The notes below the pieces were generated by a model, which saw nothing but the letters and a program-made list of their open reading frames with translations, was not told the origin of the DNA and made no database searches. Source: Edaphobacter lichenicola (GTDB taxonomy: Bacteria; Acidobacteriota; Terriglobia; Terriglobales; Acidobacteriaceae). From it: a DNA stretch of 64,000 nucleotides. This document shows, in pieces, positions 31,771 to 55,810 of the stretch; position 1 is the stretch's first letter, and the number at the start of each line of letters is the position of its first letter. The translations under genes were made by a program, and so were the position numbers. The stretch is taken from contig NZ_CP073696.1 of the NCBI RefSeq assembly GCF_025264645.1, positions 2,294,001 to 2,358,000 on the forward strand. Reading direction: 5' to 3'.

Positions 31771-31798
31771 GCGAGAAGATTCGACCGATACACACTGA
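31625..31798 (+). CDS. Small conserved-looking ORF before the recombinase
   Basis: 57 codons from GTG 31625 (another GTG at 31616), reading MSPPRQGVLLWEIPTTQELP, MRCRELLSQMLL. It overlaps both neighbours in another frame. The peptide has a hydrophobic-then-helical pattern not expected by chance from the overlapping frames, and I recall similar short ORFs next to this recombinase class. Probably translated with it; role unknown. Confidence 0.4.
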   Translation: MSPPRQGVLLWEIPTTQELPVPVQMRCRELLSQMLLTVVSGTTGEESDEREDSTDTH

Positions 31799-33875: not shown

Positions 33876-33896
33876 CATTATGTCACTGCTCTCTGC

Positions 33897-35076: not shown

Positions 35077-35281
35077 GCCTGTCAATGAGCGCATTGGCCT
35101 CATATCGGCACTTGAAAGCAAAAAGCCCGCGAGCCGATAGGCGGGACCAGCCAGAAAAGGATCAACCTCAAGTTACACCCGACCCGCTGTAAAGGTTGTG
35201 GCGCTCACGCAGTGCGTTAGCGCCAACCCGTACGTTCATCGGTCCCTCAATCCTCAATCGGGGAAGACCAGGAAGTCTTCA

Positions 35282-35731
35282 TCACTTCCAATCGCCACCC
35301 AGGAATTGCCTTCGTCCAGACCGTGTGACAACGACGCCCGTGTCTTGACAGATACCTTGAAATCCGACTCCGTTCTCATCGATCACGAAGGAAAAGTGCG
35401 AGGTAAATCCTTCGGAGGTTTCGGTGAAAGTGCCCGTGCAATCGTCACTTACCGTATATGTCCCCGTTCCGGTTCCAGGGCCTATGCTGCCGTTTGTGCT
35501 CGCATTGTATTTGAAGCTGACGCCGCCTCTCCCGTCGAAGTATTGCACACCAACCTCGGCGGACGGTCCAAGTATGGAGGCGGGTGCGTTAGCAACAATA
35601 GGTCCGATGGAGGTGTAAGCGAAGTGGCCCTTCAGCGTAGCCTCAGAGCAGTCAGCCTTCGCGTTGGGTGCAAAACCCAGGGCAAGTAGGGTGAATGCGG
35701 CGGTTGTGAGAGCGATGGCGTTGAGTTTCAT
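35282..35731 (-). CDS. Small secreted protein, Acidobacteria-type
   Basis: 149 residues. ATG 35731 has AAGGAG 6 bases upstream. A signal peptide (residues 1-28, cleavage after AKA) is followed by CSEATLKGHFAYTSIGP, Gly/Thr-rich strands (GTGTGTYTVSDDCTGTFTE) and a pair of extra cysteines. I recognise the pattern as common in Terriglobia exported proteins of unknown role. Divergent from the ECF sigma gene, with 152 bases between them. Confidence 0.6.
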   Translation of the reverse strand: MKLNAIALTTAAFTLLALGFAPNAKADCSEATLKGHFAYTSIGPIVANAPASILGPSAEVGVQYFDGRGGVSFKYNASTNGSIGPGTGTGTYTVSDDCTGTFTETSEGFTSHFSFVIDENGVGFQGICQDTGVVVTRSGRRQFLGGDWK

Positions 35732-35883
35732 GATCATCTCCTTTGCATTTCGTAGATTGACTCGATTCAGGAGAAGAATCGGCTTGACCGCCTATTCTCC
35801 CCTCGTTTGTACTGGCGGAAGTGACAGGCAAAAGCGGCCACGCTTTGGTATATTTCTTTTGCCTGGGGGGAGCGAGGCTATCC

Positions 35884-36501
35884 ATGGACGAACGCTCTGG
35901 AGAAATCACCCAACTGCTAAAGGCCTGGGGCGGTGGTGATGAAGCAGCCCTGGGCCGGTTGGCGGAGTACGTCTATCCTGAATTGCGCCTGATGGCGCGT
36001 CGTTACATGAGGAACGAAGGCCTGGGCCACACTCTGCAGGCCACCGCTATTGTGCACGAGGTCTACCTTCGCCTGATCGATGTGTCTAAGGTCGAATGGA
36101 AGGCGCGTGCACAGTTTTTTGCGATTGCGGCGCAGATGATGCGGCGTATCCTGGTGGACGCAGCCCGCGCCCGCGGTTCGCAGAAACGCGGCGGAGAAGC
36201 CATCAAAGTTAACCTGGACGAGACCGCCGTCTTGTTACCGGCCCCGGACCGGTCAATTCTTGCCCTGGACGACGCGCTAACGGCGTTCTCGCTTTTGGCT
36301 CCGCGGCAGGCCAAGGTGGTCGAGTTGCGATACTTTGGCGGATTGACCGAAGAGGAAATCGTCATGGCGCTCACAATCTCTCCTCGCACGGTCAGGCGCG
36401 ACTGGAATTTCGCCAAGGCGTGGCTGCTTCGAGAGTTGAGCCATACTGTAAGGGACGATCGTAACCCCGGCCATGACTCAGGAGCGCTTCCGACAAATTG
36501 A
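35884..36501 (+). CDS. ECF RNA polymerase sigma factor, acidobacterial type
   Basis: 205 residues from ATG 35884 (GGGGAG upstream; longer frame less likely). Sigma region 2: LAEYVYPELRLMARRYM, LQATAIVHEVYLRL, RAQFFAIAAQMMRRILVD. Region 4: LAPRQAKVVELRYFGGLTEEEIVMALTIS then PRTVRRDWNFAKAWL. The ECF subfamily is one usually paired with protein kinases rather than with a membrane anti-sigma. Its stop lies 29 bases inside the downstream kinase gene, so the two are co-expressed. Confidence 0.85.
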   Translation: MDERSGEITQLLKAWGGGDEAALGRLAEYVYPELRLMARRYMRNEGLGHTLQATAIVHEVYLRLIDVSKVEWKARAQFFAIAAQMMRRILVDAARARGSQKRGGEAIKVNLDETAVLLPAPDRSILALDDALTAFSLLAPRQAKVVELRYFGGLTEEEIVMALTISPRTVRRDWNFAKAWLLRELSHTVRDDRNPGHDSGALPTN

Positions 36502-39235: not shown

Positions 39236-39595
39236 TGATGTTCTTCGGTTTGTTACCGGCGACCTGTCCGTCGTTATATAGCGAATCTCTACCAAATGCG
39301 TCGTCGAGTCAGTCATTCACCAAAGCTCCAGCCGTTCTCGATGAGCGATAAATCTCCAAGTCACTCAATGAATAGGTTGGTCTGTTCACGCCAACTAAGA
39401 ACGGAAGCCCTGCTTTCGCCGCCGCCCCCTGTTCATTCACGGACGCCCTCAGGCGAAATCGGACACCCAATCCGGCCCCTATGCGCCTTCGAAATCCCGT
39501 AAGCTAATTTGTTCTTATGAAGTTTCGTTAAAAAACACTTTGGCTCCCGAATTGCTTTTCTTTCCATGCAGATCTGGTGTAACCCGGAGCCCGAC
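39236..39595. other. Intergenic stretch before the ADOP permease
   Basis: 360 bases. Short frames only; no recognised repeat or RNA. Holds the promoter of the permease gene. Confidence 0.35.
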
Positions 39596-42025: not shown

Positions 42026-42315
42026 GTCGCTTTCGCATCGAAGTTGCCGCATACCGGGCTTCTCGCACATGATCTATTCGATGTGAGGCCGGGAAACCGC
42101 GTTCCGCATCTTCAGTTGACGGTACATCACCAATGCGCGATTCGAGAATATTGGGTGGAAACGTGCATTGGACTGTTAGCGCCAGCCTAAGTTCATTCCT
42201 GGTTGACCCTCATCCGGAGAATGCGCCTTCGTCTGCCGCCGTAATCGTGCCCGAACGTTCAGACTCAGGCGGGAACTTTGCGAGGAACCGCTTCGTAGGT
42301 CTCTCAGGAGACCTC

Positions 42316-43989
42316 ATGCGGAATCTTGTCATTTGCCTCGTTCTACTCTCGTCGTTGGCTTTCGCACAGACCACGGTTAAGACCGAAGCACAATGGGGAG
42401 AGACCGTGACCGAACTCATGCGCAAGGGAGACATTCCTGGACTATCGATCGCGGTGATCCGTGACGGCAGGATTTGGTGGGAGGGCGGCTTCGGCCAGAA
42501 AAACGCGGTCAATAACGGTGTGACGGACGGACAGGTCTCGCGGGACACGCTATTTTCCGCCGCCTCTTTGAGCAAGCCGGTGTTCGCTTATATAGTTGTT
42601 CGCCTTGTTGACCGTGGCGTCATCGACCTCGATAAACCCCTCTATACCTACGGTCTTGCATACCCACGCGTTGACACGGACGCTCGCTCGAAACTCATCA
42701 CGGCCCGTATGGTCCTAGACCATACGACAGGCCTTCCCAACTGGGGAGGGACACCACTTGACTTCTCGTTCACACCCGGGACGAAGTTCAGCTACTCCGG
42801 TGAAGGGTATCTGTATCTGCAGAAGGTCGTCGAGCATGTGACTGGAAAGGCGCTTGAGGAACTCGCGCAGCAGGAGGTTTTCCTGCCTTTGAGGATGGAG
42901 CACAGTACGTTTCGGTGGCGGCCCATTCTTGCGAACCAGCTCGTTATAGGCAAGCTGGAGACAGATGGGCCGATGACCTGGGAGCTCGCGGACGAGAATG
43001 CTGCATCCAGCCTGCTCACCACCGCAGATGACTACGCCAGATTTATGGTCGCGGTGATGAATGGGGCAGGGCTTAAGCCGGCAACCTTCCAGCAGATGTG
43101 GTCCTCCCAGGTTGCAGTTCCCGAAATGGGGTCGAGTGTCTCCTATGGACTGGGCTGGGGACTTGAGCAGGTTGGGGCGCTGAAGTACGTCTACCACGGC
43201 GGAAACAATGTGGGTTTCAAGTCTGCTGCGATCGCGTGCCCAGAAAAGCGACAAGGACTGGTGTTCTTAACAAATAGCGAAACCGGTCTAACGATCGAGC
43301 CCGCTCTCGTCAAAGCAATCGACGGTAGCGATCACCCTGGGCTTTTTTCGGAGACGGAGGCTTACACGTCACCGAGGCTGGTCGCGCGCAATGAGCTCAT
43401 CCGCTTGTTCACGCAAGAAGACTTGCAAGACGCGCTCCGGCAGTATCGTAAGCTCAGGGCTGAACAGCCTAAAGTCATCGACGAAGACCTGACGCGCATC
43501 ATCGGCCGCAGTTTGGGAAACCACGGCAGGCTGGAAGCTGCGATTGCGGTCTCCAAGGAGAACGTCCAGAATTATCCCAAGTCTGCGAGAGCCGTGGACA
43601 CATTGACCTGGGCGTATGTCCTTTCAGGAGATGGGCCCGATGCCCTCCAGGCGAACAAGGTGGCCCGTGAGATCGATCCAAAGGACATGGACCGATGGGA
43701 CTCGATCGAGGTCTGGCTTACCGAATACGAAACATCCGTTCACAAGCCTTTCATAGTTCCGGAGACGACACTGAGCAGTTATGCCGGCGCATATGACTCG
43801 GGACAGGTCTCCGTGCAAGACGACCACCTGATCTTTAGGCCATCGCTACAGAAAGTCGATCGCCGGCTAATTCCGGCCTCGACCGAAATCTTTTTCGTCG
43901 AGGGAGATCTGCAGACGAAGCTTCAGTTCCGTACGAAACCCAATGGCGGTCCTGTAGATCTCATCGTTTCGAAGATCCCATGCTCGTAA
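42316..43989 (+). CDS. Secreted serine hydrolase, beta-lactamase/esterase family
   Basis: 557 residues from ATG 42316, chosen because AGGAG lies 5 bases upstream and a signal peptide follows (MRNLVICLVLLSSLAFAQ). The penicillin-binding-protein fold is seen in SLSK (nucleophile Ser-x-x-Lys, about residue 85), YSGEG (Tyr of the YxN-type motif, about 160) and YHGG (third motif, about 294). Residues about 350-450 are helical and TPR-like, and a C-terminal lipocalin-like DUF3471-type beta domain ends the protein. Probably a periplasmic peptidase or esterase; substrate unknown. Confidence 0.8.
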   Translation: MRNLVICLVLLSSLAFAQTTVKTEAQWGETVTELMRKGDIPGLSIAVIRDGRIWWEGGFGQKNAVNNGVTDGQVSRDTLFSAASLSKPVFAYIVVRLVDRGVIDLDKPLYTYGLAYPRVDTDARSKLITARMVLDHTTGLPNWGGTPLDFSFTPGTKFSYSGEGYLYLQKVVEHVTGKALEELAQQEVFLPLRMEHSTFRWRPILANQLVIGKLETDGPMTWELADENAASSLLTTADDYARFMVAVMNGAGLKPATFQQMWSSQVAVPEMGSSVSYGLGWGLEQVGALKYVYHGGNNVGFKSAAIACPEKRQGLVFLTNSETGLTIEPALVKAIDGSDHPGLFSETEAYTSPRLVARNELIRLFTQEDLQDALRQYRKLRAEQPKVIDEDLTRIIGRSLGNHGRLEAAIAVSKENVQNYPKSARAVDTLTWAYVLSGDGPDALQANKVAREIDPKDMDRWDSIEVWLTEYETSVHKPFIVPETTLSSYAGAYDSGQVSVQDDHLIFRPSLQKVDRRLIPASTEIFFVEGDLQTKLQFRTKPNGGPVDLIVSKIPCS

Positions 43990-44556
43990 AGGCAGGGTCA
44001 GCAACGACCCCTGCACTATTCACGTCCCCAAAATGCGCATGTCGTCGACTACGATTCTGGACTGATGCTAAGTCGCCGGTGCACTCATTGACAGCCGATC
44101 ACGATAAGCGTTCGTGGCGGGTGCGGCGCTTTGGATTAGGTGGCGTACGTCGTGCATCCAGGTCGCCGGACAAAAACAGGCCATGGAAATGACAGAGTAT
44201 GGAAAGCATGGAAAGCCATGATGCCGGCTTCCCACCCTTCCCACACTCTTTGGAAATCCCTTCGGGATTCCCACATTCCCACGGCCTCGACGACTGGATA
44301 TATGTTGTCTCAGTTCTGCAATTCGAGACCATCGCCTCCGCAAGGGGGTTGTAACGGATGTCTCAGGTCCACAGCGTAACGCATGTCCCGGTACACTCAA
44401 TCCTTAGGAGGCTTATCTTCCTTATGCGTGCGCGTCAGCGCACATGACTTATAGGGTGGGTGTTGCGGGCGGGAAAGGCCCGCTGTGGTGGGAAGCGAAG
44501 AATGCGGAGCAGTCGCAGCGCGGGAGGAGACCCCTCCCGCAACTCAGTGCGACTTT
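43990..44556. repeat. Intergenic region with TTCCCAC and ATGGAAA repeats
   Basis: No gene recognised over about 570 bases. TTCCCAC occurs four times (44229, 44238, 44268, 44276) and ATGGAAA three times (44183, 44199, 44208). A GCGGGAGG/CCTCCCGC hairpin lies near 44521-44540, on the 3' side of the next minus-strand gene. The repeats could be protein-binding iterons or simple-sequence drift. Confidence 0.4.
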
Positions 44557-44775
44557 TTAGCGAGATACAGGGGACGTGGAGTAGTCCTTGAGCAGGCGAG
44601 GATGCCCACCTTCATTGCGCATCAGTTTGGCTTCCAGCGCACTCGCTATCTTTAAGCACGAAGAGAACACGGTGCCATCGGTGAACTCGATACAGATTTC
44701 CGGGCCGTCGATCGAGTCTTCGTAGAGTTTGAAGCTGCTAACGATTTTTCCAACAAATTCCTGACATTCGACCAT
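44557..44775 (-). CDS. Small hypothetical protein at the edge of the secretion region
   Basis: 72 residues from ATG 44775; GAAAGG precedes it by 8 bases. Sequence MVECQEFVGKIVSSFKLYED, EICIEFTDGTVFSSCL, ASALEAKLM: an alpha/beta pattern, no signal or membrane segment. Beta-strand pair IEFTDGTVF is typical of small conserved proteins on mobile elements. Unknown role. Confidence 0.5.
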   Translation of the reverse strand: MVECQEFVGKIVSSFKLYEDSIDGPEICIEFTDGTVFSSCLKIASALEAKLMRNEGGHPRLLKDYSTSPVSR

Positions 44776-45356
44776 GCAAGATCCTTTCCTCGTATACACG
44801 CGAATTAAGGCTTCGACAAGAAGGAACGGGCGATGCGCCGCCGTGAACGCGCAAGTTGGAATATGAGTGCGAACTTATGCTGACGAGGCTCCGGCAATCA
44901 TAGCGGAGGAGGCCACTCTGAGAGTAGCGGACGGTTCGGCTGCCGATATGAGGCAGGCATGATGCTGGAAATGGCGGCGTAACCATATCTATCCCCTCAA
45001 CCGGATTCAGGGAAAAAACATTTGCGGTGCGCCCCCGCAAACAGCCCTATAAACCCGTGATCGGGGAGGTGGAAAGCCGAACAAAGCACGGCTCCTGCGA
45101 CCTTTAGCTTTAGGGCCTGGACATACGTCACAGGTTCCCCGACCGCAAAGTCGTAGGGTCTTCCGCACGCCATAGGCGTGCGACTAGCTTTGTTTGGGGT
45201 TTCCACACCCCAGGGCGGTGCGTGACCGTCCCACTCAAATCATTCAGGAATGAGCCAAAAATTGCAACATCTTCTGTGGCTCTCGACACTCTCCCTCGAG
45301 GGAAGCTAGGCGAACATAAAGAGAACGTGAAAAGATATTTCTGAGGCCAGGGAGCG
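44776..45356. other. Stretch without recognisable gene
   Basis: About 580 bases. It contains a small hairpin (TTTGCGG/CCGCAAA, near 45022-45043) and short frames without ribosome sites. I see no conserved coding sequence. Confidence 0.35.
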
Positions 45357-45590
45357 ATGGGCAAACGAGGCAGAGACGAACTAATCGGACGCTTATTTGA
45401 AGTCGCTGAAGACCTGCCCTGCCCTGAAGGAATCGCTTTATTGCGAGCGTTCTCTGAGCGCCGCCCATCGGATTTCGCCTTTCTCAAATCGAGCGACCTG
45501 GCTGATTTGAAAAGCTCGGCCTTTACCGGCATCGCTGAGTGGGACGCCTTCAAAGACCACTATGTCTGCTGTGGACTCTGCCATGGTTGA
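45357..45590 (+). CDS. Small hypothetical protein ahead of dinB
   Basis: 77 residues from ATG 45357. Charged and helical (GRDELIGRLFEVAEDLPCPEG), with a Cys-rich end (FKDHYVCCGLCHG). Its 3' end overlaps the dinB start region by 29 bases, so before the rearrangement it would have formed an operon with dinB. No family recognised. The CCxxC end might bind a metal. Confidence 0.45.
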   Translation: MGKRGRDELIGRLFEVAEDLPCPEGIALLRAFSERRPSDFAFLKSSDLADLKSSAFTGIAEWDAFKDHYVCCGLCHG

Positions 45591-45795
45591 TTCCAAGATT
45601 TCAGCCGGGGCGGGCATTGCCGAGATCGGCAGTCGCAAGATCGTTCACGTCGATATGGATGAGCAGATCCTCAACCACTTCCTCAACCGCCTTCCAATCA
45701 TCACCCTCAAGGAAGGTTCCCGCGCACGGGTCTACATCGGCCGTGATCTCCTCATCCCCTCCTACGCAGAACACCGCGTCGAACCCGCATTGTGA
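45562..45795 (+). pseudogene. Chimera: dinB N-terminus fused to VirB10/TrbI-like C-terminus
   Basis: The first 33 codons end in SRKIVHVDMD, the unmistakable start of a Y-family DNA polymerase IV, whose next residues should be AFYASVEQ. Instead the frame goes on as EQILNHFLNRLPIITLKEG and RARVYIGRDLLIPSY, which resembles the end of VirB10/TrbI conjugation proteins. The missing dinB part is at 53778-52716 on the minus strand and starts AFYASVEQ. The junction is 45659/45661. The start is ATG 45562 or 45583. VirB5 follows 17 bases downstream. Confidence 0.8.
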
Positions 45796-45812
45796 CGTAA
45801 AGGAGCCTAACC

Positions 45813-46679
45813 ATGCAGCGACTTCTCAACAAGTACCGGAGCGGAGGCCTTGCCGCCGTCTTCCTCATGCTCACCGCCCTACCCGGACACGCGCAGTTTG
45901 GCGGTGTTGTATTCGATCCCACACAATCGGCGCATGCTCTGCAGCAGATCTACCAGAACGTGCAGAACAGTGTTACGTGGCAGCAGCAGCTCGCCAATAC
46001 GATCCAGTTGCTGGCGACCGCAGACAAGGACTACCAGCAGGCCATCACGACCTACAACACGATCCACGGCAATCTGAAGAACTTCAGCAGCAAGTCGATC
46101 TGGCAAACCATCCAGTCGCAGCTCACGATGGCGAGCTTCGCCAACCAATATGGCGAGACTACTGGGCTTCAAGCGGCCATGAACGGGCAGGCACCGGGCA
46201 CCTCAAGTATGGTCTGGAAGCTCATGAATCTGGGCTTGAACTCAACTTCGTCCTCATTCCTCAGCGGACAGGTCCTTGGATCGAGTCATGCGTTAGCGAC
46301 GCTGACACGCATGGAGGCGATGGATGGGGTATCCAGTCAGTGCCTTGGTTCTGTTGGAAATTACAACTCGATGCGGAATGGAAATCTGCTGCCGCAGACT
46401 TCACTTACGCAATCGCAGTTCGATACCACGTCCTTCACGACGACCGAGCTGGAACAGCTCAATCTCCTGAACATGGCGAACGCTCACCATCTCAATGAAT
46501 CGCAGGCACAAGGGGCGCTTCATGCGTGCCAAGCAGCCCAGGCCGCCGTGCAGAACATGGCTCAGCGAACGGCGGCTGCTGACGAGATCAACAACGCCGC
46601 ATTCGTTCAGCAACAGCGAGCGGTGTTCTCTTCCGCACCTGCAAATAGCTCGCATACCTGGGATACTTACCTACCCTAA
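45813..46679 (+). CDS. VirB5/TrbJ-like conjugal transfer protein
   Basis: 288 residues. AAGGAG is 8 bases before ATG. Signal peptide residues 1-27 (cleavage after GHA), then a long helical, Gln/Asn/Ala-rich body (FDPTQSAHALQQIYQNVQNSV, NTIQLLATADKDYQQAITTYN). VirB5/TrbJ proteins sit at the pilus tip or in the periplasm. Start of a run of co-directional secretion genes. No cysteine pattern beyond two near the C-terminus. Confidence 0.75.
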   Translation: MQRLLNKYRSGGLAAVFLMLTALPGHAQFGGVVFDPTQSAHALQQIYQNVQNSVTWQQQLANTIQLLATADKDYQQAITTYNTIHGNLKNFSSKSIWQTIQSQLTMASFANQYGETTGLQAAMNGQAPGTSSMVWKLMNLGLNSTSSSFLSGQVLGSSHALATLTRMEAMDGVSSQCLGSVGNYNSMRNGNLLPQTSLTQSQFDTTSFTTTELEQLNLLNMANAHHLNESQAQGALHACQAAQAAVQNMAQRTAAADEINNAAFVQQQRAVFSSAPANSSHTWDTYLP

Positions 46680-46693
46680 AACGAGGAGCGGCA

Positions 46694-46924
46694 ATGCAAC
46701 AAACTCTGCGAACAAAGCTCTTGATCGGGATTCTCGCCGCTCTTACCGTAATTGGTGGAGTCCTGGCACACGAGCTTCAGGTAAGCAAAGAGACGGCAGC
46801 ATCAACAGCCAAGACCGCAGCCGAACGTGAGAAGGCAGCGCAGATCGATCGCGACGATAAAGCGGCTATCCAGAAGATCCGTGAGCGCAATGCTCGGAAA
46901 GCGACCACGGCTCCCAACCAATAA
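46694..46924 (+). CDS. Small membrane-anchored protein of the secretion operon
   Basis: 76 residues. One N-terminal helix (LLIGILAALTVIGGVLA) and a charged helical tail rich in Glu/Lys/Ala. GAGCGG precedes the ATG. In position it corresponds to TrbK/VirB7-like small proteins, but it has no lipobox cysteine, so I do not assign it. Confidence 0.6.
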   Translation: MQQTLRTKLLIGILAALTVIGGVLAHELQVSKETAASTAKTAAEREKAAQIDRDDKAAIQKIRERNARKATTAPNQ

Positions 46925-46968
46925 CCGTTCCATCTTCTAATACTCACTGAACAGAGGAGAAACCAAAC

Positions 46969-47901
46969 ATGATCCTCCACACGATGGCCTCCTCTGCTTT
47001 TTTCCTGCAGGCCGCCGCTACCGCCCCAGGGGTTGACTGGCTGTATCAGTTCACAAACAACCTCACTAATCTGACGACCCAGAACGGAGACGCGTTGTCG
47101 TCTGTGGGTATGTCCCTGCTTGCCTTTGTCAGCCTCATGAAGCTCGTTCGCATGGTGATTCACTGGAACACCTCGACGATGACGATCAGCCTCAATGCAC
47201 AACCTGTGCGGATTGGCGATTTGGTCGAGTTTCTATTGCAACTCATCATCTGCCTGCTGATCATCAACTACTGGACGACTCCGTTCCCAGGCGCAAGTTT
47301 CGGTTTCAATCATCTCTTCTCGTACTTCGCGCAAGTCATCGTTGCGGCCCTCGACCAAAACTCGCTGAATCAGTTACAGCAAGCTCTCAGCAACGCACTC
47401 AATAACACGCCGCAGCCCAGCTATCTCGCGCCGCTCGAAATCCTGACCTACATACTCGTCTACATCTTCGTAGGGCTTGCGGGCGGAATTCTCTTTCTCA
47501 TCAACTGCTCTTCCTTCATCTTCTACGGCGTCGCGGCTCTCTTTGGACCCATCTTCGTACCTCTTTTGATGTCGCGTACCTTTCGCGGCAAGTTCTACAA
47601 CTTCGTCGATGTTCTGCTGAGCTTCGCGATGATTCGGGCTGTTGCCGCCGCCTTCATCTTCGTGTGGTCAGGATTTCTTGTGTCGTTTCTTCAGCAGACC
47701 TTCAACGGCGACTATTCGCTTCCCATGTGGATCGCGAACCTGTACGGAGTGATCGCCGTCTTCATTGCATTCATCCTCAATATGACGATGGTGCCAACCA
47801 TCACCCAGACGCTATTCGGCGGCGGTTCCGGCGCTGCCGGAAGAGTCGCGCAATTTGCTGAGGCCGTGCTCATTCGGGCGGCCGCAATAGGAGCTGCCTA
47901 A
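46969..47901 (+). CDS. VirB6/TrbL-like inner membrane channel protein
   Basis: 310 residues with about six to seven membrane helices (for example LVEFLLQLIICLLIINYW, LTYILVYIFVGLAGGILFLI, IRAVAAAFIFVWSGFLV, VIAVFIAFILN) and the central GPIFVPLLMSRTFRGKFYNF segment typical of TrbL/VirB6. GAGGAG precedes the ATG. It forms the inner-membrane part of the DNA or protein channel. Its stop TAA shares a base with the next ATG. Confidence 0.78.
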   Translation: MILHTMASSAFFLQAAATAPGVDWLYQFTNNLTNLTTQNGDALSSVGMSLLAFVSLMKLVRMVIHWNTSTMTISLNAQPVRIGDLVEFLLQLIICLLIINYWTTPFPGASFGFNHLFSYFAQVIVAALDQNSLNQLQQALSNALNNTPQPSYLAPLEILTYILVYIFVGLAGGILFLINCSSFIFYGVAALFGPIFVPLLMSRTFRGKFYNFVDVLLSFAMIRAVAAAFIFVWSGFLVSFLQQTFNGDYSLPMWIANLYGVIAVFIAFILNMTMVPTITQTLFGGGSGAAGRVAQFAEAVLIRAAAIGAA

Positions 47902-48149
47902 TGTTTGCAATGATCTGGGCTTATCTCTGCGTTCCCCGCCGATTCCGCTTCATTGCCAGGTGGATTGCCGTTGGCTTTGTACTCGTGGTTGTGGTCTTGG
48001 TACTTATCCTTTTCGCCCGGATCATTCTCACAATGCCCATCAATCATGGAAACCCGTTCCGCCCGGAATCCCATCAGCCAATGTCGCCAGACTTTATTAA
48101 GCATCATCTGCACAGTGGCGCAACGCTAAGGAGAGTTCATGAAGACTGA
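47901..48149 (+). CDS. Small single-helix membrane protein
   Basis: 82 residues: a positively charged start (CVPRRFRFIARW), one strong helix (about residues 22-44, VGFVLVVVVLVLILFA) and a short outside tail. Overlaps VirB6 by one base and VirB8 by 11 bases, so it belongs to the same transcript. No family recognised. Confidence 0.6.
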   Translation: MFAMIWAYLCVPRRFRFIARWIAVGFVLVVVVLVLILFARIILTMPINHGNPFRPESHQPMSPDFIKHHLHSGATLRRVHED

Positions 48150-48945
48150 AGCCCTTACACCCAATGAGGTTCTGCTCACTGACGAAATTGCAAACGAGAA
48201 GTATGTTGGATTCTATGCGGAACGCAAGATGAGTCGGCTTGTCATCACGGCAGGGAGTGTCTTGCTCCTCGGCTCATTTGGCGTGATCGTTTCGCTCGCA
48301 CACCGACCCGTTCAAACCCGCTACATTCGCATCGACGAGATGGGCAAAGCGACCGCAATACAGTATTCCGATCTGGCCTATTCACCGCGCGAGGGAGAGG
48401 TTCGCACGTACCTCACCGACTGGGCCAACTACCGATTCACCATCAATCGAGAGACGATCTCAAAGAAGTATCCGATGAACTATTACTTCCTTTCGGCGCA
48501 GCTTGCGAATCAATACATGGCCGAGGACAATGCGGCTCATCTCGTCTCTCAGGTGCTGGGTAATCAGATCGAACAGAGCGACGTTGAGATCGATGGCGTA
48601 ACAATAACTTCGATGTCACAGGAGACAGTCAAAGACGCCCCCATTGCGCGTGGCACGGCGCTGGTCAATATCACAAAGATTTACTCTCCGCGCAACTCCA
48701 GACAGCCGCGCAAAGAGCATTGGGTTCTCTCCGTCACCTACTACCTCAATCCGGCGCAGGTGAGTCTCGCTGCGCAGACCTTTCCGCAGTTCGAGACCAT
48801 CAATCCGCTTGGGCTAACCATCACTGAGTTTCATGAGAACAGGCTGTCGGTTGAACCGATCGATCCCGCCTCCTCTCCTCAAATTGCTTCGGCTCCTGCA
48901 ATGACCGTTCCGGCCACTGCACGCCCGACCGGGGTGAGCCGATGA
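48139..48945 (+). CDS. VirB8/TrbF-like conjugal transfer protein
   Basis: 268 residues: short cytoplasmic start, one helix (about residues 36-56, LVITAGSVLLLGSFGVIVSL) and a periplasmic domain with YIRIDEMGKATAIQYSDL, WVLSVTYYLNPAQ and INPLGLTITEFHENR, the VirB8 fold ending. AAGGAG is 6 bases upstream. VirB8 nucleates the core channel. Its stop overlaps the virB11 ATG by 4 bases. Confidence 0.8.
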   Translation: MKTEALTPNEVLLTDEIANEKYVGFYAERKMSRLVITAGSVLLLGSFGVIVSLAHRPVQTRYIRIDEMGKATAIQYSDLAYSPREGEVRTYLTDWANYRFTINRETISKKYPMNYYFLSAQLANQYMAEDNAAHLVSQVLGNQIEQSDVEIDGVTITSMSQETVKDAPIARGTALVNITKIYSPRNSRQPRKEHWVLSVTYYLNPAQVSLAAQTFPQFETINPLGLTITEFHENRLSVEPIDPASSPQIASAPAMTVPATARPTGVSR

Positions 48946-49910
48946 GCTGGGATTTGGTACTGGGTTTCTTCCCCGAAGAAGTGCAGAAGCTGATTCTCGA
49001 CGCCACCATCTCGGACCTCATGATCAATGGCACCACTGGCGTGTACGCGGATCGCAACGGTGTCGTGGAACAGATCCCGCTTTCGTCTGCATTGACGACC
49101 GAAACGCTGCTTGCGGCAACCCAGCAGATTGCGCGGAAGCTGGGGCAGAACCTCTCGGATCAGAACCCTATTCTGAACACACGACTTCCCGATGGCTCAC
49201 GCGTTGCCGTCGTCGGACCGCCCGCGTCCATCAACGGCATCACCATGACGATCCGCAAATTCAATTACTGGTTTACGTCGGATCAACTGATCGCTTCCGG
49301 CAGTCTTCCCGTCAGCGTGCGGGATGTCGTCATCAAGTTGATGGTCGATAGGAAGAATGGCATCATCAGCGGCGGAACCGGCAGCGGGAAGACAACTCTG
49401 ATGAAAGCGCTCCTCGATCACGTCCCCCAGCATGAACGCCTGGTTGTCATCGAACAACCGGCGGAGCTGAAGATATCGCAGCCCAACGCAATCCGCTGGG
49501 AGGCTGTAGAAGCGATCCCGGGGCAGGTTGCCATCACGCCAAGCCAGCTTTTGGCTGCTGCGCTTCGCCACCGTCCCGACCGCATCATCATGGGTGAGAT
49601 ACGCGATGAGTGCGGCTACGACCTGCTGCAGGCGATGAATACCGGCCACGGCGGGACTCTTTCGACCATCCACGCAAAGTCAGCGTGGGACGCTCTCAAT
49701 CGCCTGTCCGATTTGGCCTTGAGTGCCAGACCAAATCTCAACCATGCGTTCGTGCGTTCAGAGACCGCGGAGGCGATCGACTTTGTTCTGTACTGCGAAC
49801 GCGATCCTACGGGGCGACGCCGAGTTCGCGAGCTGATCACCGTGGCTGGATATAGTCAGGCGGACCAGAGCTTCCAGACGGAGGACATCTATCGTGCTTC
49901 AGCAGCCTGA
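48942..49910 (+). CDS. VirB11/TrbB-like secretion ATPase
   Basis: 322 residues. N-terminal domain with SDLMINGTTGVYADRNGVVEQ, then the RecA-like core: Walker A GGTGSGKTTLMK (about residues 145-156), Asp/Glu box (VVIEQPAELKI), Walker B RIIMGEIRDECGYDLL and histidine box GHGGTLSTIHAKS. A cytosolic hexameric ATPase that powers pilus assembly or substrate export. Complete, with all catalytic motifs intact. Last gene of the virB5-virB11 run. Confidence 0.88.
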   Translation: MSWDLVLGFFPEEVQKLILDATISDLMINGTTGVYADRNGVVEQIPLSSALTTETLLAATQQIARKLGQNLSDQNPILNTRLPDGSRVAVVGPPASINGITMTIRKFNYWFTSDQLIASGSLPVSVRDVVIKLMVDRKNGIISGGTGSGKTTLMKALLDHVPQHERLVVIEQPAELKISQPNAIRWEAVEAIPGQVAITPSQLLAAALRHRPDRIIMGEIRDECGYDLLQAMNTGHGGTLSTIHAKSAWDALNRLSDLALSARPNLNHAFVRSETAEAIDFVLYCERDPTGRRRVRELITVAGYSQADQSFQTEDIYRASAA

Positions 49911-50442
49911 TCGTCAGGCTTCCCGCTAGAAAACCACACCCGAATCGAGGTCACTCCGATGTCCCTACATGCTGCCAAGACGGCTGCACAGCCTAACTCG
50001 TCTCTGAAAGCGCCCAGCGTGTCGTTCCTGAGCGTAGAAGCGCACAACAATCCGTGTGCGATGCCGGCCTTCTGTGGACACCTAACCGCTCGAAGGAAGG
50101 CTGCGGTTGAGGCGGACTTCCTTCGCCGAGATAGAGAGAATGACTTCGGTGCATCGGGGAGTATTCCGCCTCGTATCCCGTCCTCTACTCGGGGTCACGC
50201 TTCGGGGCCAAACCGGCGCCCTGCGGCTCGGCGTCGTTCTGCTTCGCTTTCAGCGCCCCTGCGGGGTCTCGGTTCCTCCCAAAAGAAGTTTGAGAACAGC
50301 GGCAAAGAACGCCGCACAAACTTCGTTCGGGCCCCGCCAAGAAAGCACTCCTTGGCACTTGGGAGCCGGGCCCACTCGCTTGGCTTCGCCTAGTGTGACC
50401 CGAGCAGGATACGGGAAATTCAACGAAACGGAGATCACCACC
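49911..50442. other. Non-coding region between virB11 and ssb bounded by imperfect inverted repeats
   Basis: 530 bases. A frame at 49959-50393 is open but low-complexity basic and I do not accept it with confidence. Sequence at 50172-50200 (CGTATCC, CTACTCGGGGTCAC) recurs inverted at 50394-50417 (GTGACCCGAGCAGGATACG), enclosing about 190 GC-rich bases. This may be a structured DNA or RNA element such as a transfer or priming origin, or a leader for ssb. Confidence 0.4.
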
Positions 50443-50817
50443 ATGTACTCAAACAAAGTCACCCTCATCGGATTCCTCGGCAAAGACGCAGAGGTTCGCT
50501 CCAACAACGACCGCAGCCTGACCACTCTCTCGCTGGCGACCAAGTCTTCCTACAAGAAGGACGGCAAGTACATCGAACACACCGAATGGCATCGTTGCGT
50601 TGCTTTCGGGAAGCTCGGAGAATTCGCTGCCACGCTCAAGAAGGGCGCTCATATCCAGGTCGAAGGCGAGTTGCGTAGCCGTAAGTACGACAGCAAGAAG
50701 ACCAACTCGGAACAGACCATCTGGGAGATCCGGGTGAGTTCGATTCTCAAGCTGGATCGCGCTGCCAAGGCTTCGGCGGAAGACGAAGAAGATGTCACCG
50801 AGGAAGAGGCCGCATAG
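50443..50817 (+). CDS. ssb: Single-stranded DNA-binding protein
   Basis: 124 residues from ATG 50443 (CGGAG 8 bases upstream); the longer frame from 50107 is a read-through of the leader. OB fold: NKVTLIGFLGKDAEV, TTLSLATKSSYK, HTEWHRCVAFGKLGE, KKGAHIQVEGELRSRKY, WEIRVSSILKL. A short acidic tail (EDEEDVTEEEAA) replaces the long linker of chromosomal SSBs. Such element-encoded SSBs support conjugation and replication. It ends before a clear hairpin. Confidence 0.88.
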   Translation: MYSNKVTLIGFLGKDAEVRSNNDRSLTTLSLATKSSYKKDGKYIEHTEWHRCVAFGKLGEFAATLKKGAHIQVEGELRSRKYDSKKTNSEQTIWEIRVSSILKLDRAAKASAEDEEDVTEEEAA

Positions 50818-50834
50818 GCCGCTTCCGTGACTGG

Positions 50835-50860
50835 AGAAGCCCGTCAACCACCGGGCTTCT
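50835..50860 (+). terminator. Hairpin after ssb
   Basis: AGAAGCCCG / CGGGCTTCT, a perfect 9-base stem with an 8-base loop, 18 bases after the stop. Only a few T follow. Likely terminator of ssb transcription. Confidence 0.6.
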
Positions 50861-50919
50861 TACTCTGCTAACCGCCCATCCGATCGAGTTCTATCCATCC
50901 CCCACAAGTGAGGTATTGC

Positions 50920-51855
50920 ATGAACGGAATTGCTACAGACTTTCTAACCCGTTGCTTCGCTCCGGGTGACACCATTGCTCTCCTGCTTCGCAATGAGAGC
51001 ACGGCCACGACGCAACAGCGCGTCGTGGGTTTGGAGCGTGCGCTCGCGCCCCGTTACCGGGGTTGGCTCGCTCATGAGAATCACAGCGGAACGAACATTT
51101 ATGTCGCGGCGAATCCGCTCCTTGCAGGTAGCCGGAGACGTACTAAAGACTGCATCGCCTCTGTTCGCCATCTTTATATAGATATCGACGTGAATGGAGA
51201 GGCCCGGCTAGCTGCGCTCCGAGCCTCCGACCTCGTGCCGGAGCCAAACATTGTTGTCTCGACATCACTTGGCAAATACCAGGTGCTTTGGCGTGTAGAA
51301 GGCTTCGACTTCTACACCCAGGAGATGACTCTCAAGCTGTTGACACTGGCGTTCCACGCTGACATCTCCTGCACTGACTGCAACCGTGTTCTCCGTATCC
51401 CTGGATTCCGCAATTGCAAGTACGATCCTCCGCAACTTGTCACAGTCGAATACGTCGCTGATGCGACGTATCAGCCAGACGATTTTCGTCTGTACACCCT
51501 GCGTGAGGCCGCCTGCATTCCGCCCATCCGCACTCAATACCGGCGTCTGGACATGCACACGCATTCCGAGCACGATTGGGCGTGGGTGTCCGATGAACTT
51601 GCTCACGGCAAAGACGCCGTGATGCTCACCCAAGAGCTAGCTTCGCGCCGCTCCGACAAGCCCAATCCCACTTACTATGCACAGCGCACCGTAGACATGG
51701 CCTCGGCGCGTCTCTGGCTGCTTGAAGGAACCGACATCGAGGACGTGATTACGTCGCTTGAAAAGCGCCGCCAGGTTGAGATCCCAGGCGCAACTTGCTC
51801 CGCTCGTGCGCGGGAGATCGCTGCCACAGCACAGCGGATGATCGCCCGCAAATAG
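50920..51855 (+). CDS. RepB-like DNA primase / replication protein
   Basis: About 311 residues from ATG 50920, chosen because GTGAGG lies 8 bases upstream (a GTG four codons earlier is possible). The archaeo-eukaryotic-type primase pattern is visible: HLYIDIDVNGEARLAAL (metal-binding DxD), VVSTSLGKYQVLWRVEGF, FHADISCTDCNRVLRIPGFRN. Such RepB primases synthesise primers on plasmids and conjugative elements. Downstream, a small gene begins 33 bases later but is cut. Confidence 0.8.
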   Translation: MNGIATDFLTRCFAPGDTIALLLRNESTATTQQRVVGLERALAPRYRGWLAHENHSGTNIYVAANPLLAGSRRRTKDCIASVRHLYIDIDVNGEARLAALRASDLVPEPNIVVSTSLGKYQVLWRVEGFDFYTQEMTLKLLTLAFHADISCTDCNRVLRIPGFRNCKYDPPQLVTVEYVADATYQPDDFRLYTLREAACIPPIRTQYRRLDMHTHSEHDWAWVSDELAHGKDAVMLTQELASRRSDKPNPTYYAQRTVDMASARLWLLEGTDIEDVITSLEKRRQVEIPGATCSARAREIAATAQRMIARK

Positions 51856-51888
51856 ACCTCCCATTCCACCGCCTAAAGGAGAAGCAAA

Positions 51889-51962
51889 TGCCACTACTCG
51901 AAGTCGTCCAAACTCGCCAGATCAGCGCTTCCATTCGGCTGACTGATTCCACCGCTAACCAG
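51889..51962 (+). pseudogene. N-terminal stub of a small element gene
   Basis: ATG 51889 (AAAGGAG 7 bases upstream) reads MPLLEVVQTRQISASIRLTD and a few more residues, then the sequence becomes the truncated end of an integrase gene. The good ribosome site and abrupt junction show that a real gene was cut after about 25 codons. Confidence 0.5.
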
Positions 51963-52585
51963 AGCACCTTGGTCGTGATCGGACGGCTCGAGGTATGCCA
52001 CCGGTTGCCGGGAAACAACCACTCGGTCGGCTTATGCTGAAGCCCGCGCCAGTAGTTACGCAACGCTTCGAGAAGCACCGGACTCAGCATCACGTCGCGG
52101 TCCTTGCGTCCCTTGCCTCCGCGAATGTGGACCACCATCCGCTGGCTGTCGATGTCCGCCAACTTCAGGCGAGCTACTTCCGCCCGGCGTGCACCGGTTG
52201 CATAAAGCGTCATGATCAGGATGCGCTGAAAGGGCGTCTCGGTCGCAACGATCAGACGCCCAACCTCCTGCTGACTGAGGATCTCCGGAAGGCGGAGTAC
52301 CTTCTTCGGGTAGGGCGTCTCGGCTGCACTCCAGCCTCGCTTCAAAACCTGGATATAAAGGAAGCGCAATGCAGCCAGCCGTTGCGTGACGGTGTTCGGA
52401 GCCAGCTTCCAGGTGCGGAACATCGCAGCCTGGTACTGGCGAATGTGGTCCAGGCCGAGCTTGTCTGGCGAACAACGGAAGTGCTGTGCGAAGTGCTCGA
52501 CAGTGCGGATGTAACTGCGAATGGTTCCAGGAGCGTAGTTGCGCCGCTCCAACTCTTCCAGCATGATCTGACGTAGATGGGTCAC
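51963..52585 (-). pseudogene. XerC/IS91-associated tyrosine recombinase, truncated
   Basis: From ATG 52585: HLRQIMLEELERRNYAPGTI, the SAM-like core-binding domain, then the catalytic domain with ATGARRAEVARLKLADID (Arg) and VHIRGGKGRKDRDVMLS. The protein breaks off after FPGNRWHTSSRPITTKVLW, before the H-x-x-R, His and Tyr motifs. The frame stays open to 51749 but that tail is antisense of the primase gene. The relic type travels with IS91-like transposases; it ends inside the small element gene. Confidence 0.8.
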
Positions 52586-52715
52586 AGAGAATCCTCCTTC
52601 TCTGCGACAAACGCTAGATCATCACCTTAAGCCCATGCCCAGCACACGCGAACGCGTCCGCCGCACAGCGGCTTCGTTCAAGTCGGCATATCGTCAGTAA
52701 ACAATTCTGTCGCGA

Positions 52716-54032
52716 CTAGCAGTTCTCTTCGCCAAGCAATAATGGCGCATCGGTCATGCCCCAGTCTTGCGGCGTCCCCTCTTCCAGCCGAAAGTTATTG
52801 AGTCCGATGCCGACTAACCGATAGAGCTGTTCAGGTGACAGATCGACTCTGTCACGTAACGCCAGCGCGATGTTCAGGAAACTCTCGAAACTTGGAATCG
52901 GGCCGCGCGAAGTCAGGCATCGTGTCAAAGATTGGAACTCCTTCGTCTTCAGCTTAAGCACGACCGTCTTGGCTTCGCGTGCATTCTCTTTCGAGGCGTT
53001 CCAAACCTTCTCGGCTAATCGCCGAATGTGCGCTTCGCATTCCGCCAGCGGGATGTCGTCTGGGAACGTGTCCTCGGCAGAAATTTGTTTCCGCATGCGG
53101 TTGGAGACGACAGGATTGTGGTCAATCCCGCGTGCCAGTTCGTAGAGTCGCTGCGCATAGCTGCCAAACTCCTGCTCCAAGGACGCAAGTTCCATCGCGT
53201 AGATATCGCCAACGAGTTTGATTCCGGCTTTCGCCATGCGGGCCTCAGTCACTTTGCCGACGCCGGGAATGCGGCCCACTGGGAGCATGAGCAGGAACGC
53301 CTGCACCTCATGAGGCTGAATCACGAACTGGCCGTTTGGCTTGCGCCAATCCGAGGCAATCTTCGCCAGGAATTTATTAGGAGCCACGCCTGCCGAGGCC
53401 GTGAGCTGCAATTCGTCCCATATCTGTTGCCGGATCGTCTTCGCAACCAGCGTGGCGGTGGGTATGCCTGTTTTGTTCTGCGTGACATCGAGATATGCCT
53501 CATCCAGAGATAACGGTTCGACAGCATCGGTATGCCGCTGAAAAATCTCCCGTACCGCCTGCGATGCTGCTTTGTAGCGCACAAAGTCGGGTGGAACAAA
53601 GACTGCTTCCGGGCACAACCGCTCTGCGCTCACCGCAGCCATCGCGGACCTCACTCCAAAACGCCGCGCCTCATAGGAAGCCGCGCAGACGACCGAGCGT
53701 TTTCCTTTCCACGCCACAATCACGGGACGTCCGCGAAGGCTTGGATCGTCGCGTTGTTCAACGGAAGCGTAGAAGGCAGCCATGACGCGAGTGTACTGAT
53801 AGAGACAGGCTCCCGGAGGCAGACCACGTAGCGACGCTTCCACCCCACGAACACGAACGTCCAAGTCCTCGTCGGTCCTGCTCTCTTCGTCGATCCCAAC
53901 CAGGGAGAAGAGGCAACCGTATCCGCCGCCCTTGAGCGCGAAGATATTTTCGCTAACGAAGTATGACAGCGGAATGATCCCTGTCGCTGCTCCGGCTTTC
54001 GTGAACCACGGTGCGTTATTTTCGCGGGTCAT
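52716..54032 (-). CDS. VirB4/TrbE N-terminus fused in frame to DNA polymerase IV lacking its first residues
   Basis: 438 codons, continuous. Residues 1-84 (FVSENIFALKGGGYGCLFSL, GIDEESRTDEDLD, CLYQYTRVM) are the start of a VirB4/TrbE ATPase and follow virB3 as expected. From residue 86, AFYASVEQRDDPSLRGRP, SYEARRFGVRSAM, SLDEAYLDVT, SAGVAPNKFLAKIASDWRKP, GIPGVGKVTEARM are DinB through to its little-finger domain. The catalytic Asp of HVDMD is replaced by Val (RVMA), so only the SLDE pair of the metal triad remains. Junction at 53778/53779. Probably a rearrangement product without polymerase or secretion activity. The missing DinB start is at 45583-45660. Confidence 0.85.
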   Translation of the reverse strand: MTRENNAPWFTKAGAATGIIPLSYFVSENIFALKGGGYGCLFSLVGIDEESRTDEDLDVRVRGVEASLRGLPPGACLYQYTRVMAAFYASVEQRDDPSLRGRPVIVAWKGKRSVVCAASYEARRFGVRSAMAAVSAERLCPEAVFVPPDFVRYKAASQAVREIFQRHTDAVEPLSLDEAYLDVTQNKTGIPTATLVAKTIRQQIWDELQLTASAGVAPNKFLAKIASDWRKPNGQFVIQPHEVQAFLLMLPVGRIPGVGKVTEARMAKAGIKLVGDIYAMELASLEQEFGSYAQRLYELARGIDHNPVVSNRMRKQISAEDTFPDDIPLAECEAHIRRLAEKVWNASKENAREAKTVVLKLKTKEFQSLTRCLTSRGPIPSFESFLNIALALRDRVDLSPEQLYRLVGIGLNNFRLEEGTPQDWGMTDAPLLLGEENC

Positions 54033-54276
54033 AGTAGCTCCTCTGCTTTAGGCTCAGAGACCAGAGTTGAAACATCTTGGGGTGCTTGCGAACAACCAGC
54101 CACGCGCCGATTAGCAGCGCGGGAAAGCTGAAGATGGCGAGCCATTTGAAGCCAGCGAGGAAAACCGTCACCGTGACGAAGACAATGGACATCCACGCTG
54201 ACAGTTCGAGACCTAATTTGGTCCTGGGTCGATTCAGTGCGCCATTGATTGGTAACGGTTCTCCACGCCTGGTCAT
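54016..54276 (-). CDS. VirB3/TrbD-like conjugal transfer protein
   Basis: 86 residues: a short basic start (ALNRPRTKLGLELSAW), two close membrane helices (about 31-60, IVFVTVTVFLAGFKWLAIFSF and ALLIGAWLVV), then HPKMFQLWSLSLKQRSYYDP, the usual VirB3 ending. The stop lies 17 bases inside the VirB4-DinB chimera, and virB2 lies 13 bases upstream. Small inner-membrane partner of VirB4. Confidence 0.75.
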   Translation of the reverse strand: MTRRGEPLPINGALNRPRTKLGLELSAWMSIVFVTVTVFLAGFKWLAIFSFPALLIGAWLVVRKHPKMFQLWSLSLKQRSYYDPRK

Positions 54277-54289
54277 GTCGATGTACCTC

Positions 54290-54667
54290 CTACATCGACT
54301 GTCCGGTCAGAGAGCCAATCCAACCGGCTCCCCAGCCGAGCACTCCGGCGCCGAACAGCGCACCAAAGAGTCCTGGAATAGCGTCCTGAAATCGTCCGCT
54401 CATCATGCGGATTCCGGCGAAGATGAGTCCGCCGAAACAGATGACAGCGCCTGCGTATACAGCGAAGGTTTTAAAGGTTCCCATTAAAGTCTGGGCTCCC
54501 GAGAAGTCAATCGTCCCTTGCGCGTGGGCGACGCTCGAAAGGGCTAGGACAATAACCATTGGAGCTAGGGCTCTAGTCTGATGGAACTGTGAACTGGTTA
54601 GGAGCTGCGTTAGTCTTCTGAAATGAGCAATGCTATTGAAAATGGATATGCGTCTTTTGTGACCCAT
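54290..54667 (-). CDS. VirB2/TrbC-like pilin subunit
   Basis: 125 residues: a long basic leader, a signal helix (APMVIVLALSSVAHA) and two mature helices (GTFKTFAVYAGAVICFGGLIFAG and PGLFGALFGAGVLGWGAGW) with short Gly-rich turns, the VirB2/TrbC plan. First gene of virB2-virB3-virB4' on the minus strand, opposite to virB5-virB11. Confidence 0.75.
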   Translation of the reverse strand: MGHKRRISIFNSIAHFRRLTQLLTSSQFHQTRALAPMVIVLALSSVAHAQGTIDFSGAQTLMGTFKTFAVYAGAVICFGGLIFAGIRMMSGRFQDAIPGLFGALFGAGVLGWGAGWIGSLTGQSM

Positions 54668-54772
54668 CGGTACCCTCCGTCGACTGGTTTCAGTCGGAAT
54701 GTGCTGTGATCATGAGGGTCTGAAACGTGCGTGTCTAATACGTTCTATTTATCGGGCGATACCTCTCAAATA

Positions 54773-55810
54773 TCACTGCGCGTCATCTCTCGAGTTCTCA
54801 GTGCGTTCTCTCAAGAGTGGCAATTGGATCGGTTCACTGCTTGTTGATCGAGGAGGCTTCCGAATTGAGGTGATTTGTGGAGTAGCAGATGACCCCATCG
54901 GGCCGCCTACTTTCGCTTCACTCCTAGATTGCCTCTTCAACTTCTTGATTAGAAGGGGGACAGTTTTAGGATGTCGTTGCTTGTGGTAGACAACCGCTGT
55001 GTTGACGTTCCAATCCACTCCTGCAATCGGCCTTGTTGTCAGCTCACTATCAAGCGGAGTTCCCTCGCGAATCAACGTAAAGCCGTGCCCCTCCTTCACC
55101 AACATTTGCATCTCCGATGGGTGCGATGCGACAGAATATTCTTCGACCTTAACGCCGGTCTTAGCTAGCATCTCCAGCAGCAACTCATGCGCGTCAGGAT
55201 GGCGCACAGGGTGGTAGAGCACGGCCAGGTTCTCCTGCAGATCGACGGGATCCAGAGCAGCCTTACGGGCGAGTGGATTATCGCGCCTTAGACAGGCAAC
55301 GAGGCGATCTGTCCGTATCTCCTCAACCCGCAGGTCCGGACGTCTAATAGGCAACGTCACAATCGCGGCATCGACCGTCCCGCTTTCGACTTCATCTGCA
55401 AGCTGGGCGGGGTCTGCATGTGTCTTTCGGATCGAACAGTCTGGCAAGATCTCCTTGTGGAGGTCACAGAAACCACGAAATAGGTTTTGGTCGACAAGAG
55501 GCGCGCACCCGAAGCGAACAGTGCTAATCTCGCCGCGCTCTATCGAAATTAGGGCGTCGATTACCTCATCGCGGGTATCCAGCAGCAGACGAGCTAAAGA
55601 GATGAAGGCAGTTCCAGTCTCAGTTGGTCGGATGCGCCCACTCTTCATCTTCTGGAACAGGCGAATGGAAGCGTTCTCCTGAAATTGTCTGGCTTGCACG
55701 CTGAGGTTAGGTTGTGCGGTGTGAAGATGTTCAGCAGCGGCCCGAAATCCTTGTCTTTCAAGTATCGCGAGGAGATATCGGAAGTGACGAAGCTCGGCCC
55801 AATCGTACAT
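54773..55810 (-). CDS. LysR family transcriptional regulator next to the secretion genes
   Basis: 345 residues. Winged helix (LAILERQGFRAAAEHLHTAQPNLSVQARQ, two helices, residues about 14-42) and a LysR effector domain to about residue 300; the last 45 residues are basic and unusual. It is 105 bases upstream of virB2 in the same direction, so it may be read with it or control it. Effector unknown. Regulators of this kind often sit next to acidobacterial transfer genes (recollection, not checked). Confidence 0.8.
   Translation of the reverse strand: MYDWAELRHFRYLLAILERQGFRAAAEHLHTAQPNLSVQARQFQENASIRLFQKMKSGRIRPTETGTAFISLARLLLDTRDEVIDALISIERGEISTVRFGCAPLVDQNLFRGFCDLHKEILPDCSIRKTHADPAQLADEVESGTVDAAIVTLPIRRPDLRVEEIRTDRLVACLRRDNPLARKAALDPVDLQENLAVLYHPVRHPDAHELLLEMLAKTGVKVEEYSVASHPSEMQMLVKEGHGFTLIREGTPLDSELTTRPIAGVDWNVNTAVVYHKQRHPKTVPLLIKKLKRQSRSEAKVGGPMGSSATPQITSIRKPPRSTSSEPIQLPLLRERTENSRDDAQ

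Follow-up and report, generated by a model that had tools for sequence, protein, structure and literature searches.

How can one gene come to lie in two halves on opposite strands, with each half fused in frame to a piece of another gene? The question is raised by a 64,000-nucleotide window of Edaphobacter lichenicola (positions 2294001–2358000 of a single-contig 5.66 Mb genome, 99.97% complete), in which the polymerase gene dinB is divided among the genes of a type IV secretion system (T4SS). Coordinates are those of the window unless another contig or locus is named. On the plus strand, the first 33 codons of dinB, up to HVDMD (45562–45660), run into the 3' end of virB10 (45661–45795, codons ~398–441), giving a hybrid open reading frame (ORF) of 77 amino acids at 45562–45795. 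On the minus strand, the first ~84 of ~789 codons of virB4 (53779–54032) run into the remainder of dinB (52716–53778, AFYASVEQ to the stop codon), giving a hybrid ORF of 438 amino acids at 52716–54032. Comparison with relatives indicates that dinB was formerly one gene and was split by an inversion. The segment 45660–53778 appears inverted relative to the intact element of a relative, and we consider it probable that a single end-joining event, in which ~4.1 kb was lost, produced this arrangement.

Both halves of dinB can be placed on a contig of Acidipila rosea DSM 103428 (NZ_SMGK01000009.1; G102:C9, hereafter C9; locus L258). Window positions 44408–45661 match C9 57388–56132 at 95% nucleotide identity and 52682–53783 match C9 55036–56138 at 89%; the halves abut inside one intact dinB (C9 56132/56138) with a 7-base overlap, ATGGATG. 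In the window the segment has one half at each end, on opposite strands, the arrangement that an inversion leaves. The 3' piece carries the IMS domains of the DinB/Pol IV family (PF00817, 1.7e-49; PF11799, 9.8e-19). The window DinB shares 92% amino acid identity with the A. rosea protein and 70% with an intact paralogue of 386 amino acids encoded elsewhere in its own genome (L012), so the split copy is the one linked to ORF77, a small gene directly upstream on the plus strand (45357–45590) that overlaps the start of dinB and is 88% identical in A. rosea, where it lies next to the intact gene. With species sampled by one genome each, ORF77 is present in 18 of 60 genomes of the genus, its own included, and has 21 matches outside its own genome. 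Ten of these 21 are followed by an intact dinB on the same strand, namely 10 of the 13 best matches and none of the 8 weakest (wider surroundings were mapped for 14 matches). A. rosea and L260 (G105) are two further loci with ORF77 followed by an intact dinB, and L259 has a dinB and no ORF77 match. The small cargo gene orf80 (44557–44799, minus strand; no Pfam family) has the same neighbour in A. rosea, being 96% identical at the protein level to the copy beside ORF77 in L258.

The A. rosea contig also shows what the un-flipped order would look like. Its T4SS runs on the plus strand from virB2 to the relaxase (23.1 to 40.2 kb) in the order virB2-virB3-virB4-virB9-virB10-virB5-virB6-virB8-virB11-ssb-primase-gene X-coupling protein-relaxase; its minus strand carries dinB and ORF77 at 55–56 kb, with orf80 beyond. 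Turning back 45661–53777 in the window places lysR, virB2, virB3, the virB4 start, the virB10 tail, virB5 through to the primase, and gene X on one strand, and the truncated integrase, dinB and ORF77 on the other; order and strands then match those of A. rosea. The initial annotation had proposed that dinB was cut at 45660/53778, that the cut left two in-frame chimeras and that re-inversion would rejoin dinB and align the direction of the T4SS, and had suggested a search for uninverted relatives with an intact dinB behind the 77-codon ORF. The abutting halves in A. rosea, the two open frames, the A. rosea gene order and the ORF77 loci described above bear out each of these points. Since ORF77 and dinB share a contig with such a T4SS element in A. 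rosea, we infer that the flip took place inside an element of this kind. A. rosea differs in having an intact dinB, a complete T4SS, a coupling protein and a relaxase, and in having no match to the window lysR or integrase beside dinB. The circular plasmid pACIX903 of Granulicella tundricola (MOBF, MPF_T) likewise has virB3-virB4-virB9-virB10-...-virB8-virB11-coupling protein-MobF; it is complete and uninverted, and its VirB8 is 66.5% identical.

Re-inversion mends dinB, but it does not restore the T4SS. In the re-inverted sequence virB4 codon ~83 would be followed directly by virB10 codon ~398, a point at which relatives have 4119 (L022), 4132 (L024) or 4093 (L025) further bases. The missing ~4.1 kb comprises the part of virB4 downstream of codon ~83, the whole of virB9 and the first ~397 codons of virB10. 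We compared T4SS gene order across 66 related loci found via virB8. Complete virB4, virB9 and virB10 occur in order in 48 of them, the other 18 being mostly cut by contig ends; L044, L083, L085, L086 and L087 deviate in T4SS order within the contig, and a virB4 start followed by a virB10 tail occurs in none of the 66. A second discrepancy lies inside the segment, where a third junction (51957/51958) cuts both gene X, the gene after the primase in relatives, of which the first 23 codons remain (51888–51957, plus strand; 88% identity over residues 17–41 of the L035 protein), and a XerD-like integrase gene, of which the 5' part remains (51958–52585, minus strand; about 91% identity to 294-residue proteins over 76% of the query). 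Here 34 of 46 rows from element relatives stop at 51955–51957, 8 at 51961–51962 and 4 earlier. Five integrase relatives (294 amino acids) diverge from the window after KVLW(L/T)A, the window integrase being cut after about residue 210 of 294. Most of seven element relatives aligned at this point read TAGC; that the integrase also had TAGC there is only suggested, by its protein. The third junction shows at least one further rearrangement. The proposal in the initial annotation that one simple inversion explains every oddity thus stands for the split of dinB, but fails to account for the missing ~4.1 kb and the third junction.

The positions of the two outer joins were examined against nucleotide matches and base-level alignments. 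For the left join (45660/45661), defined by the ends of virB10 and dinB matches, we searched 62 genomes of the genus and obtained matches in 37; the listed virB10-type rows start at 45657 at the earliest, the dinB-type rows end at 45661 at the latest, and apart from the window's own row no match in the 62 genomes spans the join. In 89 fetched loci (matches with E < 1e-5), 59 of 65 rows start at 45657–45661 and the other 6 at 45670–45679. The right join (53778/53779), placed by base-level alignments, the A. rosea dinB and locus rows, was compared in the same 89 loci and by protein search. All 11 dinB-type rows start at 53783–53796, 9 of them at 53783/53784; among 49 virB4-type rows, 16 end at 53779–53785, 22 at 53860–54020 and 11 at 53752–53777, and no virB4 match in the 89 loci extends more than 26 bases into dinB. 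Neither hybrid ORF has internal stops and both fusions are in frame, an outcome with a chance of about 1 in 9. A TrbI tail is recognizable at residues 31–63 of the left hybrid, below the Pfam cut-off; the virB10 piece is 86% identical in amino acid sequence to the genome's own intact VirB10 in L011 and 92% identical in nucleotide sequence to L022, and the virB4 piece is 65% identical to residues 1–92 of the 789-residue VirB4 in L013. A search with the left hybrid gave 57 proteins, of which only its own (70 amino acids) matches over 91% at 100% identity. Four others (P0242, P0243, P0246 and P0248) cover 90–91% of it at 56–66% identity; of these, P0242 and P0246 proved on inspection to be ordinary VirB10 tails. 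The same tail also forms an in-frame fusion with a YCII-domain protein (PF03795; P0294) of another genome.

We aligned the junctions at base level with 10 virB4, 11 dinB and 11 virB10 relatives. At the right join seven of the ten virB4 relatives read ATG TCN GGN, and the others CTG TCA GGT (L055), ATC GCC GGT (L024) and ATG GCC GGT (L025); the dinB relatives read ATG GA(T/C) GCN and the window ATG GCT GCC. The change thus falls in the codon after ATG, with one or two bases common to both parents. At the left join dinB reads ...ATGGATG, GA(G/A)CA(G/A) is preceded in the 11 virB10 relatives by GCC, AGC or GGN, and the window reads ATGGATGAGCAG; only one G is clearly common to both. An ATGGNTG match between the two parents had been claimed at both junctions. 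The word is indeed present at both in the window, but we did not find it in the 11 aligned virB10 relatives, and virB4 reads ATGGC in one of ten aligned relatives (L025). No exact repeat of at least 16 bases, inverted or otherwise, links the two junction regions, and the border regions, aligned locally in matching orientation, gave 6 bases. The joins look like the product of end joining.

These observations are consistent with a model in which breaks would have occurred in dinB and in the virB4–virB10 part of one conjugative element. Of the three broken ends, dinB would have been cut once without loss, whereas the virB4–virB10 region would have lost 4.1 kb; the ends would then have been rejoined at one or two common bases with the segment flipped. 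We infer that inversion and loss were simultaneous and that dinB was here cargo of the same element. A literature search that lay largely outside subscription journals found no paper on this rearrangement. Spontaneous inversions in Salmonella likewise have a defined join in a bacterial chromosome, and hybrid genes attributed to structural change in bacteria likewise encode in-frame hybrid proteins arising from genome rearrangement (PMC7671302). The latter were made by deletion, and one has been shown as a protein, whereas the window combines inversion with deletion and its hybrids are predicted ORFs.

Several points weigh against this model. The confirmed Salmonella inversions have 12 or more bases common at their joins, in a study that selected long matches (PMC3411829), far above the one or two found here, and the window join carries a deletion in addition. 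The A. rosea T4SS is only 66–77% identical to that of the window in nucleotide sequence; A. rosea therefore models the gene order and is not a direct ancestor. About 15 kb separate its relaxase from dinB (40242 to 55077), and the window differs beyond gene X. Eleven of the 21 other ORF77 matches, weaker ones for the most part, lack a following dinB. The BLAST rows do not place the virB4 end of the right join sharply (16 of 49 at 53779–53785), and among the 120 listed of 8000 proteins scored against the right hybrid none covers more than 85%, a result without a positive control because the hybrid itself is not listed. The junctions are known from assembled sequence. Finally, no intermediate genome was found that would show the order of deletion and inversion.

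A rival scheme has two steps, in which an in-frame virB4–virB10 deletion came first and a simple two-break inversion followed at an ATGGNTG match; it is the sole way in which a simple inversion could be right. T4SS operons with internal deletions are known (L044, L085), and ATGGNTG does stand at both window joins, as would be expected if the fusion and dinB had shared it. However, the inversion breakpoint would have had to fall within a few bases of the deletion scar, and that scar is seen in none of the 66 loci, and we regard this course of events as unlikely. Alternatively, an element opened between virB4 and virB10 could have been captured in a break in dinB, and part of it could later have been inverted between gene X and the integrase. 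The dinB and element pieces do lie on the same relative strand at both junctions, as an insertion would give. Yet the A. rosea dinB shares a contig with the T4SS and is oriented there just as a plain re-inversion would place it. The partner junction, at which the rest of gene X would meet the C-terminal part of the integrase, was sought without success across the window and the adjacent 13 kb on the right, where only weak matches to other integrases appeared. We consider such a capture improbable. An assembly error, for which the reliance on assembled sequence leaves room, is more improbable still: the genome is a single contig and nearly complete, the breakpoints hold no exact repeat of at least 16 bases that could mislead an assembler, the closest copies in the genome are 68–83% identical (apart from a 27-base dinB match at 96%), and two chance joins would have had to coincide at one base of dinB. 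A programmed, reversible DNA switch, to which the tyrosine recombinase gene inside the segment might point, was rejected as hardly credible, because no inverted exact repeat of at least 16 bases was found at the borders, the recombinase gene lacks its C-terminal part and, with 4.1 kb lost, flipping back would not restore the operon.

Within the segment, the T4SS genes on the plus strand keep the conserved order. The gene at the virB5 position (45813–46679; 94% identity to L022, no Pfam family) is followed by a small gene (46694–46924; 88% to L022), virB6 (46969–47901; TrbL, PF04610), a second small gene (47901–48149; 72% to L022), virB8 (48139–48945; PF04335, the basis of the 66 related loci), virB11 (48942–49910; PF00437), ssb (50443–50817; PF00436) and a RepB-type primase gene (50908–51855; PF16793), which follows ssb in relatives too. 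Beyond the right junction, on the minus strand, lie virB3 (54016–54276; PF05101), virB2 (54290–54667) and a lysR-type regulator gene (54773–55810; PF00126, PF03466) that heads the T4SS operon, as it does in L022 and L024. The names VirB2 and VirB5 were given by gene position alone. virB5, virB6, virB8, virB11 and the primase gene have open frames, and their ratios of non-synonymous to synonymous substitution rates (dN/dS) against L022 are 0.03–0.09, with dS above 1 in all five; the open frames would be weak evidence for a recent event. For the dinB 3' part a comparison with A. rosea gives a dN/dS of 0.09, which reflects the history of the gene before the split and says nothing about selection on the hybrid.

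We found no virB9 in the locus, and the three TrbI-family and two VirB4-family matches of the genome are all in other loci. The coupling protein, sought in the window and the fetched stretches, and the rest of gene X were not found there. A relaxase search confined to the TrwC type found none in the locus; the sole one in the genome, at 2567236, is diverged (50% identical to that of a relative) and ~220 kb away. We also considered whether the missing 4.1 kb had moved elsewhere in the genome, and rejected this: the other T4SS remnants detected in the genome belong to a diverged lineage and their ends differ from the window breakpoints. These four remnants (L010, L011, L013 and L014) hold virB2-virB3-virB4-virB9-virB10 pieces, one with a weak match to the start of virB5, and virB6, virB8 and virB11 were not found within the 20 kb fetched for each; where present, their VirB4 N-terminus is 63–65% identical to that of the window. 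In L013 (14230–14283, ~3.327 Mb) virB10 is cut ~13 bases beyond the window's virB10 cut, which may be chance. L014 (12036–12140, ~1.528 Mb) holds a second inverted join, at which the virB2 3' end on the minus strand abuts the end of virB4 and virB9 on the plus strand. On a contig of Acidipila sp. EB88 (L083) two T4SS copies are inverted, virB9 facing virB9.

To the left of dinB the window is colinear with C9 apart from two insertions. The first (31295–33893, 2.6 kb) has a 4-base flank overlap and contains a 702-residue ORF that by eye resembles a large serine recombinase; the second (34313–44408, 10.1 kb) contains genes that by eye resemble those of a permease and a hydrolase of the beta-lactamase fold. 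Further left, a palindrome at 17356–17425, CGAACCCACGACCTCT...AGAGGTCGTGGGTTCG, resembles a tRNA 3' end and lies beside a gene that looks integrase-like by eye (17620–18837). Window 17353–17537 matches C9 13772–13955, and no tRNA was called at the palindrome, which is a possible attachment site. Between the relaxase and dinB of A. rosea (L258:2634–8402) an ORF of 1131 residues, a DinB-family ORF of 514 residues (27% match) and an ORF of 350 residues stand in a row and may form an imuA-imuB-dnaE2 cassette.

Next to this locus, at 45023–45247 on the minus strand, lies a candidate structured RNA of ~225 nucleotides with seven helices and covariation. The sequence is conserved in 86 plasmid records, mostly from Rhizobium (52), Agrobacterium (11) and Methylobacterium (8) and also including Paracoccus plasmids; in the 20 of the 86 that were listed, for which the gene table is incomplete, no annotated feature lies under the match. 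Among Acidobacteriota it occurs in A. rosea and at three more loci (L149, L039 and L263). When the window copy was aligned with those of 11 plasmid loci (12 sequences in all), 56 pairs were obtained for the minus strand, of which 16 are changed on both sides, and 94.9% of cells pair compared with 35–51% when slid. Cells with a double change number 43 versus 14.7 in shuffles, none of 500 shuffles being as high, whereas the 37 further pair types do not exceed shuffles (36.5; 255 of 500). The plus strand gives a weaker structure signal. At nine of these 11 plasmid loci the RNA is followed, 21–35 bases past its 3' end, by the start of a gene in the same orientation; these genes are mostly small (two are annotated as TraM, others are regulator-like or unknown). 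The distance is 127 bases in L271, and L274 has no gene nearby. The candidate may be a leader controlling the adjoining gene. For the window copy Rfam gave nothing at E values up to 1, and one plasmid locus gave a sub-threshold match to sRNA-Xcc1 (34.3 bits versus a cut-off of 53).

What the rearrangement would mean for the two systems can be read from the pieces that remain. In Y-family polymerases the first aspartate binds the catalytic metal. HVDMD of the window aligns with E. coli Pol IV (4ir1), which places this aspartate on the left hybrid and the rest of the catalytic domain on the right hybrid, which reads RVMAAFYASVEQ at this point; no single chain contains the whole domain. Lacking the HVD aspartate, the right hybrid is predicted to have no polymerase activity, and the intact dinB paralogue likely cushions the loss. 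Similarly, the locus retains only the start of virB4 and the tail of virB10 from the set VirB4, VirB9 and VirB10, and a T4SS without these three proteins is predicted to be unable to transfer DNA. A bolder proposal is that the virB2–virB10 module is a hot spot for homology-free repair, five loci of this one genome having been cut, turned or shortened, and that a single event here both disarmed conjugation and made a VirB4–DinB hybrid expressed from the virB2 operon; we find this doubtful.

The locus is of value as a clean scar, as the un-flipped order in a relative, at 89–95% nucleotide identity around dinB, lets the dinB joins be read base by base. It shows an integrated conjugative element losing transfer and its cargo polymerase together, and illustrates that hybrid ORFs, such as the 438-residue 'DinB', can be products of rearrangement. 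Most likely this is an ordinary kind of decay in a mobile element, which adds an example and leaves the knowledge of inversions unchanged.

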